64,000 nt of DNA from Emcibacter sp. SYSU 3D8 (GTDB lineage: Bacteria > Pseudomonadota > Alphaproteobacteria > SMXS01), in NCBI RefSeq assembly GCF_039655875.1, contig NZ_JBBYXK010000003.1, positions 186,001 to 250,000 of the forward strand, written 5' to 3'. The notes under the pieces were generated by a model. The model did no database searches and was not told the origin of the DNA. It worked only from the letters and a program-made list of their open reading frames with translations. How positions within the stretch are numbered: the stretch's first letter is position 1; every line of letters starts with the position of its first letter. Below, piece by piece: positions 3,410 through 53,550 of this stretch. The position numbers and the translations under genes are program-made.

Positions 3410-4993
3410 ATGTCGTCTTCAGCGGAATCCCTCGGCAAGCGCAACCGGCTCGTAATCACCGCCTCGACTTTGGGCACCGTCTTCGAGTGGTACGACTTTT
3501 TCATCTACGGCACGCTGGCCGCGCTGCTGGCGCAGCACTTCTTTCCGGGTGAAAGCGGCACTGCCGCGTTCCTGAAATCGCTTGCGGTGTTCGGCGCGGG
3601 CTTTCTGGTGCGCCCGCTTGGCGGCATTGTTTTCGGCCATATCGGAGACCTGATCGGCCGCAAATACACCTTCCTCGTCACCATCACCATGATGGGGCTG
3701 GCGACGGCGGCCATCGCAGTTATCCCGTCCTATGAAACCATCGGCATCTGGGCGCCGATCCTGCTGGTTACGGCCCGCCTGCTGCAGGGCCTGGCGCTGG
3801 GCGGCGAATATGGCGGCGCGGCAATCTACGTGGCCGAGCACGCCCCGCCGGGCAAGCGCGGCTTCTATACCAGCTTCATCCAGATGTCGGCGGGCGCAGG
3901 TTTCCTGCTGTCGATTCTGGTCGTACTGGGGTCGAAGGCCCTTGTGTCCGAGGCAGTATTCGACGACTGGGGCTGGCGCATTCCGTTCGCCTTCTCGCTG
4001 GTGATCCTGTCGATCTCGCTCTACATCCGCCTCAAGCTGTCGGAGAGCCCCGTCTACGCCGCGATGAAGGCCGAGGGCAAGACCTCGAAGCACCCGCTGA
4101 AGGAAGCCTTTTCGACCTGGTCCCGCGCCCGTCTGGTGCTGGTCGCCCTGTTCGGCGTCGCCGCCGGCCACACCGTCATCTGGTACACCGCCCAGTTCTC
4201 GGTGCTCTATTTCCTGCGCGACACCATGCGGCTCGACGCCAGCCATTCCGAGATCATCATGGCGATCTCGGTCGCCCTTGGCATGCCGTTGATGATCCTG
4301 ATGGGCTGGGTGTCCGACAAGGTGGGCCGCAAGAAGGTGCTGCTGGCCGGCTACGGCCTCTCGGTGCTGCTGGTGTTTCCGCTGTTCCATGCGCTGGCTG
4401 GCGCCGCCAATCCGGCCATGGCCGAGGCCATGAAACTGGCGCCCGTCACCGTCGCCTCGACCGACTGCCCGTATGACGCCTTTGCCGAGAAGCAGACCAC
4501 CGAATGCGCCCGCGCCATGGCCTTCCTCGCCAAGCGCGGCATCAGTTACGAACGGGTGCCGGGCGAGCCGGGCAAGGACGTGGTGATCAGCTTCGGCGGC
4601 GTCAATATCGAGGGTCTCGACGAGGAAGCGCTGGTGGTCGCCATCACCGCCGCAGGTTACCCGCTTACCGCTGATACCGAGCGGACCAATTATCCGCTGG
4701 TGATCCTCATCGTGCTGGCGCTGATCTTCCTGTCGGCGATCGCCTATGGTCCCGTCGCGGCGATCCTGACCGAGTTGTTCCCGGCCAAGGTGCGTTATAC
4801 CTCGCTGTCGGTGCCATACCATTTCGGCACCGGCTGGTTTGGCGGCCTGCTGCCGTTCGTGTCGCAATACATCATCGTCTCGACCGGCGATGTCTATTCC
4901 GGCCTCTGGTATATGACCGGCGTGGTGGTGGTCGGCTTCCTGGTGGTGCTGTTCTTCCTGCCCGAGACCCGCGACCGCGACATCACGGCGTGA
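3410..4993 (+). CDS. MFS transporter, metabolite:H+ symporter type
   Basis: This 527-aa inner-membrane transporter is of the metabolite:H+ symporter branch of the major facilitator superfamily. The hallmark N-terminus TLGTVFEWYDFFIYGTLAALLAQHFFPG and the loop GHIGDLIGRKYTFL are present, with a second DKVGRKK loop near residue 305. Between the eighth and ninth membrane spans, at about residues 340-415, lies a long hydrophilic insert with two cysteines (near 353 and 366), absent from shorter family members. ATG at 3410 (MSSSAES) is preferred over an in-frame TTG at 3371. The substrate is probably a carboxylate or other small polar metabolite, not determinable here. The 3' end overlaps the convergent permease gene by 11 bases. 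Confidence 0.9.
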   Translation: MSSSAESLGKRNRLVITASTLGTVFEWYDFFIYGTLAALLAQHFFPGESGTAAFLKSLAVFGAGFLVRPLGGIVFGHIGDLIGRKYTFLVTITMMGLATAAIAVIPSYETIGIWAPILLVTARLLQGLALGGEYGGAAIYVAEHAPPGKRGFYTSFIQMSAGAGFLLSILVVLGSKALVSEAVFDDWGWRIPFAFSLVILSISLYIRLKLSESPVYAAMKAEGKTSKHPLKEAFSTWSRARLVLVALFGVAAGHTVIWYTAQFSVLYFLRDTMRLDASHSEIIMAISVALGMPLMILMGWVSDKVGRKKVLLAGYGLSVLLVFPLFHALAGAANPAMAEAMKLAPVTVASTDCPYDAFAEKQTTECARAMAFLAKRGISYERVPGEPGKDVVISFGGVNIEGLDEEALVVAITAAGYPLTADTERTNYPLVILIVLALIFLSAIAYGPVAAILTELFPAKVRYTSLSVPYHFGTGWFGGLLPFVSQYIIVSTGDVYSGLWYMTGVVVVGFLVVLFFLPETRDRDITA

Positions 4994-11418: not shown

Positions 11419-12009
11419 ATGTCGAACTGGAAAACGATCGCGGGCATGGCGGCATTGGCCTGCGCGATTGCCGCCCCGGCCTGGGCCGAGGAATCCACCA
11501 AGCCCGCCTCGGGCAGTGAAACCGGCAAGCCGGCGCCCGGCGGCGCCAGCGCGGTGCTCAAGGACCAGAAGGGCGCCGTCGTAGGCACCGTGACGCTGAC
11601 TCCGGGCGGATCAGGCATCGCCATGACCGGCAAGCTGACAGGCCTGACAGCTGGCAGCCACGGCTTCCACATCCACGAAAAGGGCGTCTGCGAGGGCGAC
11701 TTCGCCACTGCCGGCGGTCATTTCAATCCGGGACACGCCAAGCACGGCATCCTCAACGATGCGGGCCGCCATGCCGGCGATCTGCCGAACATCGAGGCAT
11801 CCGCGTCGGGCGAGGCGACGGTGGACATGTTCCTCACCGGTGTTTCGCTGAAGCCGGGCGCCGACAACTCGCTCGCGGACGAGGACGGCACCTCGTTCGT
11901 GGTTCATGCCGGCCCCGACGACTACAAGAGCGATCCGTCCGGCAATTCCGGCGGCCGCGTCGCCTGTGGCGTGCTCGAGTTGGCCACGCCTGCGGCGGCG
12001 TCCGAATAA
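11419..12009 (+). CDS. sodC: Cu/Zn superoxide dismutase, periplasmic
   Basis: This 196-aa enzyme dismutates superoxide outside the cytoplasm. A signal peptide (MSNWKTIAGMAALACAIAAPAWA) ends in a classical AWA site. The copper and zinc ligands are recognisable in GFHIHEKGVCEG, GGHFNPGHAKHG, HAGDLPN and FVVHAGPDDYKSDPSGNSGGRVACGVL, and the two cysteines in GVCEG and VACGV form the conserved disulfide. The ATG at 11419 has AAGGAGA upstream. A strong GC hairpin follows the stop. It follows the MgtC-like gene by 49 bases and may share its transcript. Confidence 0.95.
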   Translation: MSNWKTIAGMAALACAIAAPAWAEESTKPASGSETGKPAPGGASAVLKDQKGAVVGTVTLTPGGSGIAMTGKLTGLTAGSHGFHIHEKGVCEGDFATAGGHFNPGHAKHGILNDAGRHAGDLPNIEASASGEATVDMFLTGVSLKPGADNSLADEDGTSFVVHAGPDDYKSDPSGNSGGRVACGVLELATPAAASE

Positions 12010-46941: not shown

Positions 46942-47075
46942 GGCCGTGAGGATATCCGGGTTCGGGCGTGCCCGACAGGTGAATGCGCCACACCAACGCC
47001 GCAGGCGTCATCAAGTTCGCGGGACCTTGGCGGTGGAATTTCAACCATGTTACACTTTTAGCGGGGAGAACGAGC

Positions 47076-47789
47076 GTGAACCACCTGCTCGACCAGCTGC
47101 TGGAAGAATTGTCGGTTGTGGGCGACGACGACGTCATGCGCGAGGCCGTCGGCCGCTACCTGACCGGAATCGGGTTCGCCGGGTTCCTGTTCACGGCCTA
47201 TGGCGATAATCAGGCCCATGTCATGTGCAGCTGCGGCCAGGACCTGATGCTGCGATACCGCCGCGACGAGTTTCATGTCATCGATCCGATCTCGCGCCAG
47301 GCGCGGTCGAGCTGGCTGCCGGTGATCTGGGATGTCCGCGACTATCTGGTGCGGTGTACGGGCAAGCAGGCGAAGCTGTTCGAGATTACCCTGGAACATG
47401 GATACGAGCGCGGCATCTCGGTGCCCGTCCGTGGGCCGTTCGCCGGTTTCGACAGTTTTGTCGGCCTGTCGCGGCATACCGAGCGCGAATTCGAGCAGGG
47501 CAAGAGCCTGTGGCGGAACGAACTGATGCTGATCGGCGCGCACATGTCGTCGGTCTATCACGGCGTGCTGCACCGGGAAGACGTGCAGACGGCGGACCTG
47601 ACCACGCGCGAACTGGAATGCCTCCACTGGACGGCGCAGGGAAAGACAGCGTGGGAAGTGGCGCGTCTGATCGACATTTCCGAGCGAACCGTGCAGTTTC
47701 ACATCCGCAATGCCTGCGCCAAGATGAACGCGGTCTCCAAGCACCAGGCGGCCCTCAAGGCCGCCAATATGGGACTGATCCAAGTCTAG
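47076..47789 (+). CDS. LuxR-type transcriptional regulator with autoinducer-binding domain
   Basis: This 237-aa regulator has an N-terminal autoinducer domain and a C-terminal LuxR helix-turn-helix (DLTTRELECLHWTAQGKTAWEVARLIDISERTVQFHIRNACAKM). Of the six pocket residues named WYDPWG in TraR numbering, Tyr61, Asp70, Pro71, Trp85 and Gly113 are present at exactly those positions, but residue 57 is Leu in place of Trp. DNA-binding consensus residues Glu179, Leu183 and Gly189 are kept. GTG 47076 is preferred over ATG 46983 because GGGGAG lies eight bases upstream. No LuxI is in the window, so it is a candidate solo regulator with a non-standard ligand. Confidence 0.9.
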   Translation: MNHLLDQLLEELSVVGDDDVMREAVGRYLTGIGFAGFLFTAYGDNQAHVMCSCGQDLMLRYRRDEFHVIDPISRQARSSWLPVIWDVRDYLVRCTGKQAKLFEITLEHGYERGISVPVRGPFAGFDSFVGLSRHTEREFEQGKSLWRNELMLIGAHMSSVYHGVLHREDVQTADLTTRELECLHWTAQGKTAWEVARLIDISERTVQFHIRNACAKMNAVSKHQAALKAANMGLIQV

Positions 47790-48523
47790 AGGAATTTGGC
47801 GAAGGACGCTTCCACCGCGAAATGGTCGCGGGCGAAGTCGGCGCCTACCTGCGCCGAGCGGGGATCGGGATAGAGGGTCGTCCGGCGCGCCTCGATGCCG
47901 TCGAGCGTGGCGTTCGCAATCATTGAGCCGGGATAACGCCCCTCGCGCTCGTGCTCGCGCGCCATATCCGTCTGGATCGGCCCGGCGATCACGCCCATCA
48001 CCAGCGTACCCTTGTCCGCCAGCTCGGCCCTGATTCCCTGGGTCAGCGACCAGGTGGCGGCCTTCGAGGCGCAATAGCTGCCCACGAACGGCATGTTGGC
48101 CAGCGCGCCCATGGACAGGATGTTGACGATGGCGCCGCCGCCGTTTCCGGCCAGGACCGGGGCGAATGCCCGGCACATATGCAGGACTCCCCAGTAATTG
48201 GTTTCCATCTCCAGCCGGGCGTTGTCGAGAGCATCCGCCTCCATCAGCTTTGAATGGGTCAGCGCACCGGCATTGTTGACCAGGACAGTGGCGTCGCGGC
48301 ATATCCGCGAGGCTGCGACGGCGCTCCTGTCGGAAGTCACGTCCAGGGCAACGGGAATGACGCGCTTCTGGTCGCCGAAGGCCTCTTTCAACGCATCCCG
48401 GTTGCGCCCCGCAGCATAGACGCAGGCGGCGCCGCGCTCGAGGAACGCCTCGACCAGCGCCTTGCCAAGCCCCCGGTTGGCGCCCGTCACCACGGCGCGC
48501 GCACCCTCTATCCTCATCCGCAC
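47786..48523 (-). CDS. SDR family oxidoreductase
   Basis: This 245-aa short-chain dehydrogenase has VVTGANRGLG for NAD(P), VLVNNAGALTHS, Ser in NILSMGALA and the intact YCASK catalytic motif (SYCASKAATWSLTQGIRAELADKG). It overlaps the luxR 3' end by four bases in convergent orientation and is divergent from the phosphotransferase-like gene, with a lux-box-like palindrome in the shared 155-base gap. The substrate is unknown; the neighbours suggest catabolism of an imported compound. ATG 48523 (or 48517) is the start. Confidence 0.9.
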   Translation of the reverse strand: MRMRIEGARAVVTGANRGLGKALVEAFLERGAACVYAAGRNRDALKEAFGDQKRVIPVALDVTSDRSAVAASRICRDATVLVNNAGALTHSKLMEADALDNARLEMETNYWGVLHMCRAFAPVLAGNGGGAIVNILSMGALANMPFVGSYCASKAATWSLTQGIRAELADKGTLVMGVIAGPIQTDMAREHEREGRYPGSMIANATLDGIEARRTTLYPDPRSAQVGADFARDHFAVEASFAKFL

Positions 48524-48589
48524 ACTCCCCTGTCGTTATGTGCAATAATCCTGTGGATCGGCAGGATGTCCAGACCCTGTTGGACCGGA

Positions 48590-48609
48590 CCCTGCTAGGA
48601 ATGACAGGT
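48590..48609. promoter_or_regulatory. Lux-box-like element between SDR and phosphotransferase genes
   Basis: CCCTGCTAGGAATGACAGGT is 20 bases long, has the right arm ACAGGT of the classical lux box and an imperfect left arm CCCTGC. It shares 15 of 20 positions with the palindrome at 50944. It lies nearly midway (66 and 69 bases) between the two divergent starts. Confidence 0.45.
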
Positions 48610-48678
48610 ATCGCGGGCGTTTCGGCCCGGCCGATACTCCGGCCGGGCACGGGGAACGTGCTTTGGGAGGACTTCGGT

Positions 48679-49911
48679 TTGAGCGACGACCGCGCCATTC
48701 TTGCGCAGCTTCTGAGTGCCATCCGCCGGGATCTGGGCACGGCGATCATGCCCGATTTGCGCCTCGGCGAAGCCCGCCTGAAGGCCGGCATGATGCATGA
48801 CATGCTGGGTCACATGGTGGCCTGGATGCGCGAGGATTTCGATCCCGCGGCCGGGGAACGGGCGCGGTTCCAGGGCCACTTCGATGACGCCGAGCGCGAT
48901 GCCGCCGATGCGGCAGAGCGGCTGGCGGCGCTGGAGGTGGAGGTTACCGCCGACCGGCTGCAACGATTTCTCCGCGAGCGGATGACCGGCTGGGCCGATG
49001 CAGTGGTCGAGAGCGTCGTGCCCGCGAATGGCGGCTATTCCAAGGATACGATCCTGTTCCGCGCCGTCCGGCCTGACGGCCTGTGCCTCGACGGGGTGAT
49101 CCGCCGCGACCTGCCGTTCGGGCCCGGCGAGAACAGCGCCGTCGATGAGTTTCCCCTGCTCGGCGCCCTGTTCCGGTGCGGGCTGCCCATCGCCGAACCC
49201 TTGTGGTGCGAAGCCGACAAGGATTGGCTGGGGCAGCCCTTTATCGTCACGCGGCGCGTCGCGGGAGAGGCCAACACCGCTGTCTGGGACCGGGACGAAA
49301 CCCTGCGCCGATCCGTCTGTCTGCAGCTTGCGGCGCTGCTCGCGGCGCTCCACAGCACCGATCCCGCCGATATCGGTCTGGCCGGCGAACGGATTCCGGC
49401 CGATGAGATCGCCGACTATGTGGCGCTTTGGCATGACCGGTGGCAGCGACACAGGGTGCATGATTCCCCGGTCCTCGATGCGGCGTTTCGCTGGCTGGCG
49501 GACAATGTGCCGCAGGACCTTACGCGTCTTTCGCTGATCCATGCCGACGTGGGATTCCACAATATCCTGACCGATGATGGCCGGATCACCGCGCTGCTCG
49601 ACTGGGAGTTTTCCCACCTCGGCGATCCGGCGGAAGACCTGGGTTATTGCCGCCAGCGGGTCGAGCCGCTGATGCCGTGGGACGAGTTCCTGGCTGCCTA
49701 TTATGCCGCCGGCGGCGCGCCCTACCGCGAAAGCGGTGCGCGCTTCTACGAGGTCTGGCGCGGTGTGCGCAATGCGGTGTGCTGCGCCGTGGCCTGGAAC
49801 GGCTTTCTCAACGACTGGTACCCGGCGCTGAAGATGGGCTACCAGGGCGTGCCGCTGTACCGGATGTTCATTCTCGATGTGGCCGATCGGCTGGAAAGGG
49901 CAACCTCATGA
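48679..49911 (+). CDS. Phosphotransferase (APH) family protein with N-terminal helical domain
   Basis: This 410-aa protein has an N-terminal helical region (about 1-85: DRAILAQLLSAIRRDLGTAIMPDLRLGEARLKAGMMHDMLGHMVAWM). An aminoglycoside-phosphotransferase-like kinase domain follows, with the Brenner-type loop SLIHADVGFHNIL and ALLDWEFSHLGDPAEDLGY. In catabolic clusters such proteins may phosphorylate an alcohol or acid before CoA activation. TTG 48679 is chosen: GGGAGG (48665-48670) stands eight bases upstream, whereas ATG 48538 has no ribosome site and leaves only 14 bases to the divergent SDR gene. It overlaps the next gene by ATGA. Confidence 0.85.
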   Translation: MSDDRAILAQLLSAIRRDLGTAIMPDLRLGEARLKAGMMHDMLGHMVAWMREDFDPAAGERARFQGHFDDAERDAADAAERLAALEVEVTADRLQRFLRERMTGWADAVVESVVPANGGYSKDTILFRAVRPDGLCLDGVIRRDLPFGPGENSAVDEFPLLGALFRCGLPIAEPLWCEADKDWLGQPFIVTRRVAGEANTAVWDRDETLRRSVCLQLAALLAALHSTDPADIGLAGERIPADEIADYVALWHDRWQRHRVHDSPVLDAAFRWLADNVPQDLTRLSLIHADVGFHNILTDDGRITALLDWEFSHLGDPAEDLGYCRQRVEPLMPWDEFLAAYYAAGGAPYRESGARFYEVWRGVRNAVCCAVAWNGFLNDWYPALKMGYQGVPLYRMFILDVADRLERATS

Positions 49912-50936
49912 GCAACGGGAATCGTGGGCAGGTGATCTCCGCCGCCGGTCATTCGGCGCCCATGGCGGGCGCGCCGCTCAGCACCATCGTGCCGCAGGAC
50001 GAATTCCTGCATCCGGTCGCCGACGGTGCCCATTACGCCAGCACGGAAACGTCGTATTTCGGCTTCAACATTCCGGACAAACAGCTCAACGGCGAGATCT
50101 ATGTGTGGTTCCACCCGGCACTGCGGGTGATGAGTGCCAGCGTCTACATCTGGCGCGGCATCAAGCGGTCGACGCTTGCCTGCGAGTATGTGAACCATTT
50201 TCACTTCCTGCCGTTTCCCGAGAATGGCATCGCCGACTACACGATCGCGCCGCTCGGTCTGCATATCCGCGTCATCGAGCCCCTCAGGCAGATCGAGTTG
50301 ACCTGCAAGGATCCGGAACGGGACGTGTCGTTCAGGCTGCTGCAGACCGCGATCATGCCGCCCGCCGGCCGCCCGGGCGGCAACCATTTCACCCAGGCCA
50401 TGAAGGTCGAGGGCGAGGTCACCCTGCATGGCGAGACATTCGCGGTCGATGGCTATTTCAGCCGCGACCGGTCATGGAGCAACGAGCGTCACGAGGTGTC
50501 GCGCAATGTGCCGCCGATCTCCTGGATGGTGGGCATCTTCGGCGACGACCTGGCGTTCCATGTGCTGGCCTATGACGATCCGGCGCTGGGGCCGGAATGG
50601 GCCGGCATGTTCCCGTCGCCGCCGCCGGGCGGCAACCTGATCTGGGGCTATGTGTGGCGCGATGGCGCGACCCTTCCGGTCCGGCGCGCTGCCGTGCTCA
50701 CCCGCCGCGAGGCCGACGGGCTGGCGCCCCGGCTCAAGGAGATGGAGATCGAGGATGCCGGCGGGAAGATCCACCGCATCCGCGGCACCATCGATGCGCG
50801 CATGCCCTGGCAGACCTGGCAGAACATGAACGTCTATTTCTGTCAGACCCGCTGGGAACTGGACGGCCGCATTGGCTGGGGCGACACCCAGGACATCCAG
50901 TACAACGAATTCGTCCGCCGCTTCGCCAGGTTCTAG
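49908..50936 (+). CDS. DUF7064/DUF7065-like protein, conserved hypothetical
   Basis: This 342-aa protein has a lipocalin/AttH-like two-part beta architecture: HYASTETSYFGFNIPDKQLNGEIYVWFHPALRVMSASVYIWRG in the first half and FAVDGYFSRDRSWSNERHEVSRNVPPISWMVGIFGDDLAFHVLAYDDP in the second, where DRSW is a common family motif. Its function is not known. It starts with ATGA overlap to the phosphotransferase gene, so the two are co-translated; this pairing recurs in steroid/terpenoid-type catabolic regions of related bacteria, by my recollection. No signal peptide is seen. Confidence 0.8.
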   Translation: MSNGNRGQVISAAGHSAPMAGAPLSTIVPQDEFLHPVADGAHYASTETSYFGFNIPDKQLNGEIYVWFHPALRVMSASVYIWRGIKRSTLACEYVNHFHFLPFPENGIADYTIAPLGLHIRVIEPLRQIELTCKDPERDVSFRLLQTAIMPPAGRPGGNHFTQAMKVEGEVTLHGETFAVDGYFSRDRSWSNERHEVSRNVPPISWMVGIFGDDLAFHVLAYDDPALGPEWAGMFPSPPPGGNLIWGYVWRDGATLPVRRAAVLTRREADGLAPRLKEMEIEDAGGKIHRIRGTIDARMPWQTWQNMNVYFCQTRWELDGRIGWGDTQDIQYNEFVRRFARF

Positions 50937-50943
50937 CCGCCGG

Positions 50944-50963
50944 ACCTGTCAGGCCTGACAGGT
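50944..50963. promoter_or_regulatory. Perfect 20-base lux-box-like palindrome upstream of TonB receptor gene
   Basis: ACCTGTCAGGCCTGACAGGT is a perfect palindrome whose outer arms ACCTGT and ACAGGT equal those of the Vibrio fischeri lux box. It lies eight bases after the DUF7064-like stop and 211 bases before the receptor start. It could also fold as an 8-bp hairpin with loop GGCC, but no T-run follows. Confidence 0.55.
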
Positions 50964-51174
50964 ACCCAGCCCGCTTTCATTGGGCCTAGGATCGTCTCCA
51001 GATGCAGATAATCCGTTGATACGGAAGGGTGGGCTGGCTGCGCAACCAAGCCCATTCGGCGCTCGACGGGCTGGTCTCGGGTCGCCGCGCGATGGCGCCG
51101 GGCACAATCGACGTTCTTGCCGAAGCCATCCGACAGAAGGGGCTCGGAACGACGTCACAACTGGGGAGAAAACC

Positions 51175-53550
51175 GTGAAGTTCTTGTCATCCAAAAACAA
51201 GCGTCTAGGAAGCTTAATATTGGCATCCGTCATCGCGATGCCGGCCTATGCGCAAACTGGCGGCCTTGAGTCCGTTACCACCACGGCAAGACGGCAGGAG
51301 GAGACTCTCCTCGACGTTCCCGTAGCGGTCAGCGTCGTCAGCAGCGAGGCGCTGGGCCGTTATGGCGCCAACAACCTGTCGCAGATCGGTGACATGATCC
51401 CACAGGTGCAGATCACGCGCGCGACCTCGGGCAATGGCGGCATTATTTCCATTCGCGGCATTACGTCCGCTTCCGGCGACCCTGGCATCGATACGGCGGT
51501 CAGCATCAACGTCGATGGTGTCCAGGTCAGCCGCGGCTACATCGCCACGGCGGCGTTCTTTGATCTGGCGCAGGTCGAAGTGCTGAAAGGCCCGCAGGCC
51601 TTGTTTTTCGGCAAAAACAGCCCGGCCGGCGTGATTTCGCTGCGCAGCAAGGGACCGGGAAACGAATGGGAAGGGTTCGTGAAGGCGGGGTATGAGTTCC
51701 GCGCCAAGGAACGCTTTGTCGAGGCGGCCATCGGTGGCCCGGTCACAGACAAATTCGGCATCCGGGTCGCGATGCGTTACAGCGATATGGACGGCTGGCT
51801 GCACAATACGGCCGGACCGCTGGCCAATCCGTTCGAGCCGAACAGCCCGCTGCCCGGCGCCACCAACAACAAGCTTACGCCGGCATCGGAAGCCCTCGTT
51901 GGCCGTGTAACCATGGAATTCCGACCGAACGATAGATTTACGGCGGTTTTCAAGGTGCTTGGCAGCCGCTATCAGGACAACGAGCTGACGGGCATCACCC
52001 AGGTCGTCAGTTGTGCGGACGGCCAGGTTCATTCGCAGACCCGCGGATTCTTCGACCCCAACAGCGATTGTATTCCCGACAAATATCGCTCGGTCGGCGC
52101 GCAAGGACCGGTCGCCGCCACGAACTATCCATTGTCGAAGAAGGGTAACGGCGAATATTTTACCGACAGCAAGTCCATCCTGGCGTCGCTCGACCTGAGC
52201 TATGATTTTGGCGCGGTTAGCCTGGATGCCGTCACCGGGTTCTACCGGCTGGATTCAAACGGTCTCGGCGCCTACGACTATACGGGTCTTGCCTACTTCC
52301 CCGGCATCAACGGTGAAAAGACCACCATCTGGAGCGAGGAAGTTCGGTTGACCAGCCAGTATGATGGGCCGGTCAACTTCGTGCTGGGCGGCTATTACGA
52401 ATCCGCCAAGCGCAACAGCTTCACCGTCGGCAGGGGCGGATTTTCGAATGCGGTGCCGGTCGATCCGGCGGTCGATTTCGTTATCGGCTACTGGCCGGAA
52501 GATACGTCCGACCGTGAAACCATGTCCGGCTTCGGTCAATTGCTCTGGGACATTACGGATACGCTGCAACTGACCGGCGGCGTCCGGTACACCAAAGAGA
52601 CTGCGGATATCGTCAACCAGAACGTGTACGCGAATCCTGCCTATCAGGGAGCGCTGCTGCCGCCTGGCATGTCTGTCGCGGGCCGCATCCAGGAGAACAA
52701 CTGGTCGCCGGAAGCGACCTTGACCTGGCATCCCACCGCCGACCAGACCATCTATGCGGCCTACCGGACAGGCTACAAGTCGGGCGGCGTGTCGCAGACG
52801 GCCATCCTGCTGCGCTCCAATACCTTCGAGGGCTTGTCATTCGGCCCGGAAACCGCCAAGGGCGGCGAAATCGGCTACAAGGCCCAGCTGGCCGGCAATC
52901 GCCTGCGGCTCGACGCGAACCTGTATTATTATGAGTTCAGCGGTCTTCAGCGCTCTTCGCTCGATATCGCCACGACATCATTCCGGACACTGAATGCAGC
53001 GACCGCCGTCACCAAGGGTTTCGAACTGGAAGCGTTCTTTCTGGTAACAGACGAGCTGATGCTTCGCGGTGCGTTTACCTACAACAACGCCAAGTACACA
53101 GACTGGGGCAACGCGCCGTGCTTCAACGGCCAGCGGGCCGACGAAGGGTGTGACGTCAGCGTAGGCACCACGGCCCGGACCCAGAATCTTACCGGCCAGC
53201 CGCTGGGTCTGGCGCCAAAGGTGTCGACCTCGGCCGGGTTCACCTACGACATTCCCGTCGCCAACTGGTTGAATGTCGGCATCACGGGCGACGTGAAATA
53301 CGTAAGCGCCTACTGGGGCAACGACCTGCAACAGCCGGGCAGCCGCCAGAAAGGCTACGCCAAGTTCAACGCCAGCATCCGTCTCCACGAACCTGACGAT
53401 ACCTGGGAGCTGTCGCTGATCGGGCGCAATCTCACCAACGAACTGGCCATCCTGACCGCAGGCGACAAGCCAGGCGGTGCGCGGAATGACGTGACGGGTG
53501 TGCTCGAGCGCGGCCGCGAGGTCATTCTCCAGGCACAGTACAGATTTTAG
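51175..53550 (+). CDS. TonB-dependent outer-membrane receptor
   Basis: This 791-aa receptor begins with a signal peptide (VKFLSSKNKRLGSLILASVIAMPAYAQ). A plug domain follows (VTTTARRQEETLLDVPVAVSVVSSEALGRYGANNLSQIGDMIPQVQITRA, VEVLKGPQALFFGKNSPAGVISLRSKGPG) and then a 22-strand barrel ending in FSLRAxY-like VILQAQYRF with C-terminal Phe. It imports a bound ligand using TonB energy; the sphingomonad-like sequence suggests an organic compound more than an iron chelate, but this is uncertain. GTG 51175 has GGGGAG upstream. A lux-box-like palindrome precedes it and a strong terminator follows. Confidence 0.93.
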   Translation: MKFLSSKNKRLGSLILASVIAMPAYAQTGGLESVTTTARRQEETLLDVPVAVSVVSSEALGRYGANNLSQIGDMIPQVQITRATSGNGGIISIRGITSASGDPGIDTAVSINVDGVQVSRGYIATAAFFDLAQVEVLKGPQALFFGKNSPAGVISLRSKGPGNEWEGFVKAGYEFRAKERFVEAAIGGPVTDKFGIRVAMRYSDMDGWLHNTAGPLANPFEPNSPLPGATNNKLTPASEALVGRVTMEFRPNDRFTAVFKVLGSRYQDNELTGITQVVSCADGQVHSQTRGFFDPNSDCIPDKYRSVGAQGPVAATNYPLSKKGNGEYFTDSKSILASLDLSYDFGAVSLDAVTGFYRLDSNGLGAYDYTGLAYFPGINGEKTTIWSEEVRLTSQYDGPVNFVLGGYYESAKRNSFTVGRGGFSNAVPVDPAVDFVIGYWPEDTSDRETMSGFGQLLWDITDTLQLTGGVRYTKETADIVNQNVYANPAYQGALLPPGMSVAGRIQENNWSPEATLTWHPTADQTIYAAYRTGYKSGGVSQTAILLRSNTFEGLSFGPETAKGGEIGYKAQLAGNRLRLDANLYYYEFSGLQRSSLDIATTSFRTLNAATAVTKGFELEAFFLVTDELMLRGAFTYNNAKYTDWGNAPCFNGQRADEGCDVSVGTTARTQNLTGQPLGLAPKVSTSAGFTYDIPVANWLNVGITGDVKYVSAYWGNDLQQPGSRQKGYAKFNASIRLHEPDDTWELSLIGRNLTNELAILTAGDKPGGARNDVTGVLERGREVILQAQYRF

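Follow-up and report, generated by a model that had tools for sequence, protein, structure and literature searches.

Trp57-less LuxR solos in the order of Emcibacter are associated with uptake and breakdown genes and, in several classes, with lux-type boxes

In a 64,000-nucleotide stretch of the genome of Emcibacter sp. SYSU 3D8 (positions 186,001 to 250,000 of contig NZ_JBBYXK010000003.1), hereafter the window, we analysed a gene encoding a LuxR-type regulator together with its surroundings. In our numbering of genomes and contigs the window is G000:C3:186001-250000, from a genome of 4.07 Mb in 17 contigs. Judged by its sequence, the regulator is a LuxR solo that lacks the Trp57 of acyl-homoserine lactone (AHL) receptors, a change of one residue in its ligand pocket, and lux-type boxes lie before the uptake and catabolic-type genes next to it. 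The locus is also part of an order-wide pattern, as far as sequences reveal it, of Trp57-less solos tied to uptake and breakdown genes. A first-pass annotation had presented the locus as a single case, but other LuxR genes of the order without Trp57 show a similar association.

The regulator gene (47076-47789, + strand) begins with GTG and encodes 237 amino acids. Its product has the domain composition of a LuxR solo, namely an autoinducer-binding domain (Pfam Autoind_bind, PF03472; 51.5 bits, cut-off 23) and a LuxR-type helix-turn-helix (HTH) domain (GerE, PF00196; 64.9 bits, cut-off 23.5), both above cut-off. The pocket residues are L57, Y61, D70, P71, W85 and G113, in TraR numbering, which coincides with the regulator's own. 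In phmmer alignments, Y61, D70, P71 and W85 match the QscR, LasR and SdiA chains, and Leu57 (in GQDLMLRYRRDEFHVIDPI) stands opposite a Trp of QscR (in PGEWKSRYISEDYTSIDPI, printed ungapped). The six-residue pocket string, with G113 retained, is LYDPWG and is identical at all six positions in two orthologues. The earlier claim of a Leu at position 57 with the other five residues kept is confirmed. The AHL-receptor motif WYDPWG is thus matched at five of six residues. The AHL-receptor HTH residues E178, L182 and G188 are present as E179, L183 and G189, and are invariant across three orthologues. Overall identity of the regulator among three species is 62-66%; because five of the six pocket residues, D70 included, are identical in these species, the pocket is apparently under selection. 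AlphaFold2 run on two-row alignments gave unusable models, with a mean predicted local distance difference test score of 37.3 for the regulator and 39.7 for a neighbouring DUF7064 protein.

No luxI lies within 6 kb of the regulator gene, which is therefore a solo in the sense of having no adjoining luxI. Under the stricter definition, which requires a genome without any luxI, it is not a solo, as a genome search found one luxI on contig C1 (C1:112513; PF00765, E=7.3e-25), the window being on C3. The earlier statement that there is no LuxI is thus true of the locus only. This luxI adjoins a luxR with all six pocket residues; the genome encodes seven Autoind_bind regulators, and luxI was found in nine of ten genomes of the order. 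The luxI promoter palindrome CCTACGG-N4-CCGTAGG is exact in six of seven orthologous luxRI loci and has one mismatch in the seventh. Lying upstream of luxI at 4382-4399 of locus L016 and conserved in six orthologous luxI loci, it is likely the operator of the quorum LuxR. The other luxI loci tested lack it at up to two mismatches. At ten solo loci tested it occurs only with three mismatches or not at all, and 20 control regions contained 20 such three-mismatch sites. As the palindromes differ, the likely quorum operator of this luxRI pair differs from the putative solo operator. Elsewhere, in G001 (C26; L123, 5417-8691), four tandem luxR-type genes with Trp57 stand beside a luxI.

Two lux-box-like palindromes had been described at the window locus, and both are present, although they are not alike. 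The site at 50944-50963 (ACCTGTCAGGCCTGACAGGT; no strand assigned to either site), before a TonB-receptor gene, is the window's sole perfect palindrome of 20 bp, and its half-sites, ACCTGT and ACAGGT, resemble those of the Vibrio fischeri lux box. The site at 48590-48609 (CCCTGCTAGGAATGACAGGT), in the divergent promoter between genes for a short-chain dehydrogenase/reductase (SDR) and a kinase, is imperfect, with mismatches at two of 12 flank bases, yet it is the conserved one. When ACCTGT-N8-ACAGGT was sought with at most two mismatches, three sites were found in the window compared with 0.74 expected, the 50944 site alone being exact; since four of 100 shuffles also reach three, this count by itself is weak. 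Across the whole genome, CTGTCA-N4-TGACAG with at most one mismatch has seven sites, compared with two for the reversed control pattern. Three of the seven are exact; one of these lies in the studied locus, and a second is 4.5 kb away from a different LuxR gene. An exact CTGTCAAATATGACAG site is present at G000:C9:57105 (L011, 1501-1516), on a contig with no known LuxR gene, and AGCTGACAGGCCTGACAGCT, at 11633-11652 of the window, is a palindrome in nine of ten pairs whose core is common to the 50944 box.

Both boxes are followed on the + strand, after 23 nt, by a -10-like hexamer: GATACT (48633-48638) towards the kinase and TAGGAT (50987-50992) towards the receptor gene. Because such hexamers follow the boxes at 22-23 nt, the box centre would lie near -44, a position close to that of lux boxes in activated promoters (about -42.5). 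The luxR gene's own promoter carries no box. By eye, a promoter-like element, TTGGCG-N18-TACACT (47027-47056, + strand), lies upstream of luxR and is alike in the relatives; a stricter promoter scan does not output it. We considered and dropped the idea that the palindromes are terminators, as a terminator scan lists neither. Candidate target promoters carry a 20-bp palindrome, at 48590 and 50944; conservation of the first site and enrichment of such boxes are described below.

An orthologous regulator occurs in three of seven genomes of the genus. In the two related species (G004 and G002) the gene order is as in the window; in G002, luxR and the SDR gene stand ~730 bp apart. The divergent promoter of G004 has the box ACCTGTCAGGGTTGACAGGT without a mismatch (L032, 9775-9794), and that of G002 has CCCTGTTAGGGTTGACAGGT with one (L033, 9080-9099). 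Because the orthologous loci have these sites at the same place, we retained the 48590 site as a box. The -10-like hexamers on the kinase side are AATAAT in G004 and GATAAT in G002, and those on the SDR side are 21 and 23 nt from the box, respectively. The element upstream of luxR, as TTGGCG-N18-TACANT, is common to all three species by eye.

For the order as a whole, we took all 53 Autoind_bind matches in ten genomes (48 and five more that were examined). Trp57 is absent in 30 and present in 23. The Trp57-less pocket strings are LYDPWG in five regulators (class A, comprising the window and its two orthologues, and class B, at L035 and L036), AWSPWA in seven (class C), FWSPWG in seven (class D and two more), IWDPRA or VWDPRA in seven (class E), and four single types. 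A cytochrome P450 or Rieske gene lies within 6 kb of 22 of the 30 regulators without Trp57, compared with two of the 23 with it (a Rieske gene at L112 and a P450 gene at L139; Fisher test, 4e-6). When TonB receptors are included, the counts are 25 of 30 and two of 23 (4e-8). By contrast, luxI lies within this distance of none of the 30, versus 16 of the 23. Orthologues were counted as separate rows throughout, and contig ends truncate several of the regions. Since the queries for P450, Rieske and receptor genes came from solo loci, the counts favour these loci and may miss distant members. Among twenty spaced 13-kb control regions of G004, one of which (L154) overlaps the luxI locus of this genome, four contained a P450 or Rieske gene and two a TonB receptor gene. 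In a tree that omits five of the 53 rows and includes four foreign ones, the Trp57-less proteins form LYDPWG (99/99), xWSPW (100/100) and IWDPR (100/100) sets.

Several of these loci have features of their own. A class D solo with several boxes lies within a large oxidative cluster in G000 (L034, G000:C3:318000-337000) and in G004 (L106, G004:C1:1885000-1904000), which encodes P450s, Rieske oxygenases, a flavin oxidoreductase, a luciferase-like monooxygenase, a glyoxalase-fold protein, an acyl-CoA (coenzyme A) dehydrogenase and a TetR regulator. In G000, a gene next to the class B locus (13800-15848 of L036) resembles, when judged by eye, a squalene-hopene-cyclase gene. A regulator with the string MWHPVS (L194, in G001), which belongs to the order and stands outside the 53, has a P450 gene within 6 kb.

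Boxes are concentrated at the Trp57-less loci. We counted them within 6 kb of luxR, except at eleven loci (six luxI-linked, five examined later), where the whole fetched stretch was used. Expected numbers came from Markov resampling, and the four tandem copies of L123 were counted once, giving 20 Trp57 loci. With at most one mismatch, there are 11 boxes at the 30 Trp57-less loci (0.2 expected), and none at the 20 Trp57 loci or in the 20 control regions. With at most two, there are 29 (5.0 expected) at the Trp57-less loci, seven (3.3 expected) at the Trp57 loci and four in the controls. The box sequence is conserved within each class and different between classes. The genes behind the boxes are those for the SDR and kinase in class A, P450 in class B, a P450 divergent from luxR in class C, and Rieske, P450 or VOC genes in class D. 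Class E has no convincing box, with one two-mismatch site each at L119 and L128. A -10-like hexamer (at least four matches, at 20-24 nt) follows 12 of the 30 sites scored, against 2.8% per direction in the background, an enrichment that is overstated because every position, even within coding sequence, went into the background. Of the 15 boxes at class A, B and D loci, 10 have such a hexamer 21-23 nt downstream. The boxes at L035 5980, L106 5435 and window 57725 have none, and those at L035 10311 and L106 14688 have partial ones (3/6 and 2/6). The class C hexamer, CAAACT, is weak (3/6), yet it stands at 22 nt in seven genomes.

In the ten genomes together, the box pattern with at most one mismatch has 46 sites, versus 22 for the reversed control. 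The share of sites near a Trp57-less luxR is four of four in G004, a two-contig genome, three of seven in G000, one of five in G002, one of three in G003, one of four in G006 and one of three in G007; there are none such in G001, G005, G008 and G009. Exact ACCTGT-N8-ACAGGT sites with a near-identical core are also found in two species on contigs that have no Autoind_bind match (G005:C82:9001-9020 and G006:C61:630-649).

Beyond the genus, a search of 385 genomes of the class for class A regulators (E<=1e-30) gave no Trp57-less relative, and the four outside matches have Trp57. A search of 398 genomes of the phylum (E<=1e-28) gave 15 foreign matches, of which 14 were checked; 11 have Trp57 and three do not (Y, Y and G), and LYDPWG occurs in none of the 14. 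Relatives of classes C and D were found in five genomes outside the order. One of these is without Trp57, with a Rieske gene at most 6 kb away (L189); another, with FWDPWG, has none of the sought genes nearby (L190); and two have Trp57 and a luxI (L192 and L193). The fifth (L191, 8111-9016; G209:C140) retains every one of the six AHL residues; a TonB receptor gene lies within 6 kb, and the box ACCTGTCGAAAACGACAGGG adjoins the LuxR gene. As five genomes are too few, we make no claim beyond the order for these classes.

The genes next to the regulator in the window encode an uptake receptor and catabolic-type enzymes, as had been supposed and as Pfam matches bear out. The SDR family oxidoreductase (47786-48523, - strand) matches adh_short (125.5 bits) and NCBIfam NF006118 (281.1 bits, cut-off 279), and its orthologues in the two related species are 71% and 61% identical. 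The kinase has the APH fold (48679-49911, + strand; Pfam APH, 109.1 bits). Its gene probably starts at the TTG at 48679 and not at the listed ATG at 48538, because the orthologues align only from residue 47-50 and ggagg precedes the TTG; with this start, the 48590 site is intergenic. When compared with the PDB by phmmer, the kinase matches best 3dxp, a 'putative acyl-CoA dehydrogenase' (1.7e-17), and also 9o56, an 'aminoglycoside phosphotransferase' (2.6e-15), and ACAD11 (1.3e-14), with much weaker matches to hygromycin and macrolide kinases. We rejected a role in antibiotic resistance, as its scores with drug-kinase models, 22 to 29 bits, are far below their cut-offs of 205 to 725. The DUF7064 protein (49908-50936, + strand; Pfam DUF7064, 57.5 bits), whose orthologues are 82% and 81% identical, has no credible relative among solved structures (best E 0.15) and one distant relative in a sample of the class (33% identity, in G213). 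It weakly matches the NCBIfam 'Rv3169 family' (33.2 bits, cut-off 150); in mycobacteria, the pair Rv3168-Rv3169 likewise joins an APH-type kinase with a protein of that family. The TonB-dependent receptor (51175-53550, + strand) matches TonB_dep_Rec_b-barrel (120.4 bits) and Plug (64.5 bits), and its orthologues are 69% and 61% identical.

We consider it moderately probable that a compound of the adjacent pathway, probably not an AHL, prompts the regulator to activate the uptake and catabolic genes of its own locus. From the sequences we infer DNA binding, activation, the start points, steady luxR expression and a non-AHL ligand from the pathway. The regulator would be made steadily from its own box-free promoter, and this compound would fill the pocket from which Trp57 was lost. 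The ligand-filled dimer would then bind the lux-type box that lies some 44 bp before the start points of two divergent units, SDR and kinase/DUF7064, and, in the window's species, also the box before the TonB-receptor gene. The compound would enter through the TonB receptor, be oxidised by the SDR and pass a hydroxyacyl-CoA kinase step, thereby inducing its own uptake and turnover. As the kinase is ACAD11-like, our guess is a hydrophobic ligand that is degraded through a hydroxyacyl-CoA; this kinase role is suggested by the likeness to ACAD11 and by the roles of ACAD11 and LvaA. In AHL receptors, Trp57 and Asp70 are reported to make two hydrogen bonds that hold the AHL, with Trp57 donating to the lactone carbonyl (PMC8546723). 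Since the Trp57 bond is lost and D70 is kept, the ligand may offer a polar group to D70 and need no lactone carbonyl. Because other altered receptors also tend to adjoin breakdown genes, a receptor for communication may have become a set of food sensors. More specifically, three separate clades of the order may have turned quorum receptors into catabolic effector sensors, each having lost Trp57 and acquired a dedicated adjacent oxygenase or uptake cluster, several acting via lux-type boxes with a fixed spacing to the -10 element; we put this forward tentatively, as a proposal with somewhat less in its favour than against it.

Several observations weigh against these proposals. The rows behind the counts and Fisher tests are related by descent, and the tree needs only three label changes, so perhaps no more than three events underlie the association between Trp57 and neighbourhood. 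None of the three class A loci has a P450 or Rieske gene within 6 kb; only the TonB receptor places them among the positive loci. Within the window, the kinase-side box (48590) has two mismatches, and the SDR-side hexamer matches at only three of six positions. The perfect 50944 box has no counterpart at the corresponding position in G004 or G002; their receptor genes follow gaps of about 80 and 95 bp, compared with 238 bp in the window. Finally, only 11 of the 46 box sites in the ten genomes are near a LuxR gene, in each case a Trp57-less one.

The chief alternative is that the regulator still senses an AHL, made by the C1 luxI of its own genome or by a neighbour, and so ties uptake and catabolism to cell density. 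This would suit the retention of Y61, D70, P71, W85 and G113 and the presence of luxI in the genome and in most of the order. Furthermore, in the part of a survey considered here, CarR is listed with W57C as its sole change (PMC4338825), and LuxR402, which has a degenerate pocket with three of seven AHL-binding residues, goes with a response to 3-hydroxy-C8-homoserine lactone (3-OH-C8-HSL; PMC10413115), a point that also counts against a non-AHL ligand. Since its promoter responded to this AHL in a luxR402-dependent manner, a receptor without Trp57 may still answer an AHL. However, Leu57 is unable to give a hydrogen bond to the lactone, none of the 30 Trp57-less regulators has a luxI within 6 kb, the luxI promoters carry a different palindrome, and the neighbours are uptake and catabolic genes. 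We therefore regard AHL sensing as rather unlikely, at somewhat less than half the weight we give to sensing of a pathway compound.

Other alternatives concern the boxes themselves or the need for a ligand. A different regulator could be the one that uses the boxes as operators, for example the luxI-linked LuxR or a TetR protein, with the neighbouring solo acting elsewhere; class D clusters do include a TetR gene, and LuxR-family regulators can share boxes. This is improbable given that the luxI-promoter palindrome is missing from the ten solo loci or reaches them only at three mismatches, and that the box sequence is class-specific and enriched only at Trp57-less luxR loci. A regulator that activates or represses without any ligand would be compatible with a box-free luxR promoter and with a pocket in which one residue has changed, but identity of five pocket residues, D70 included, in three species makes this very improbable. 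Least credible of all is that the palindromes arose by chance or have a structural role, for instance as terminators: two-mismatch sites do arise randomly, as the shuffles demonstrate, but the divergent-promoter site has the same position in three species, the terminator scan did not list the palindromes, and boxes are enriched at Trp57-less loci.

If the three clades have indeed been turned into catabolic effector sensors, residue 57 would separate 'food sensors' from 'quorum sensors' within one genome. As to what pocket-altered LuxR solos sense, the gene neighbourhood gives a direct and testable answer for a whole set: the predicted ligand is a compound handled, as substrate or intermediate, by the products of the neighbouring genes for uptake, SDR, P450 or Rieske proteins. 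The LYDPWG clade, which is one of six key residues away from AHL receptors, is a clean case for studying how a receptor leaves AHLs.

Among the open-access papers that our search covered, we found none that ties Trp57-less LuxR solos to TonB receptors and to oxygenase clusters preceded by lux boxes. A 2015 survey of solos describes W57L with W85R in Methylacidiphilum species, CarR with W57C, and a rhizobial group with W57F/L, D70S, P71T and further changes; the part of it covered here contains no LYDPWG group, and 'TonB' does not occur in its text (PMC4338825). That word is likewise absent from the text of a sphingomonad survey (PMC4288048). A review of steroid degradation, in the part cited, names TeiR of Comamonas as LuxR-type (PMC6678751).

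Among known systems, the solos of plant-associated bacteria (OryR, XccR, PsoR and NesR) are described as having Trp57 replaced, as here, and as not AHL-responsive. They differ in carrying W57M together with Y61W, whereas our regulator has L57 and keeps Y61, and in adjoining a proline iminopeptidase gene, a family not found among the seven window proteins scanned. A study by Fu et al. of 2025, by its title, reportedly concerns a Rhodococcus LuxR solo that represses and activates dibenzofuran catabolic genes; it is likened to the present regulator by title only, and its host is an actinobacterium. LuxR402 of Novosphingobium sp. HR1a is, like our regulator, an alphaproteobacterial LuxR solo with a degenerate pocket, but it affects flocculation and sugar use, and the text on it mentions no lux box or P450 (PMC10413115). 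PheR of Sphingobium, as described in the part cited, also joins aromatic catabolism to TonB-type uptake under one regulator, but is a repressor of the IclR family (PMC13273656). Finally, according to the sections cited, PluR and PauR of Photorhabdus resemble the regulator in being LuxR solos with an altered six-residue motif in which Y and D are kept, and they sense pyrones or dialkylresorcinols instead of AHLs (PMC4414361). Their motifs are TYDQCS and TYDQYI, and the regulator, with LYDPWG, does not match TYDQ(C/Y)(S/I). They also control pcfABCDEF, whereas the genes predicted to be controlled here are for uptake and catabolism.

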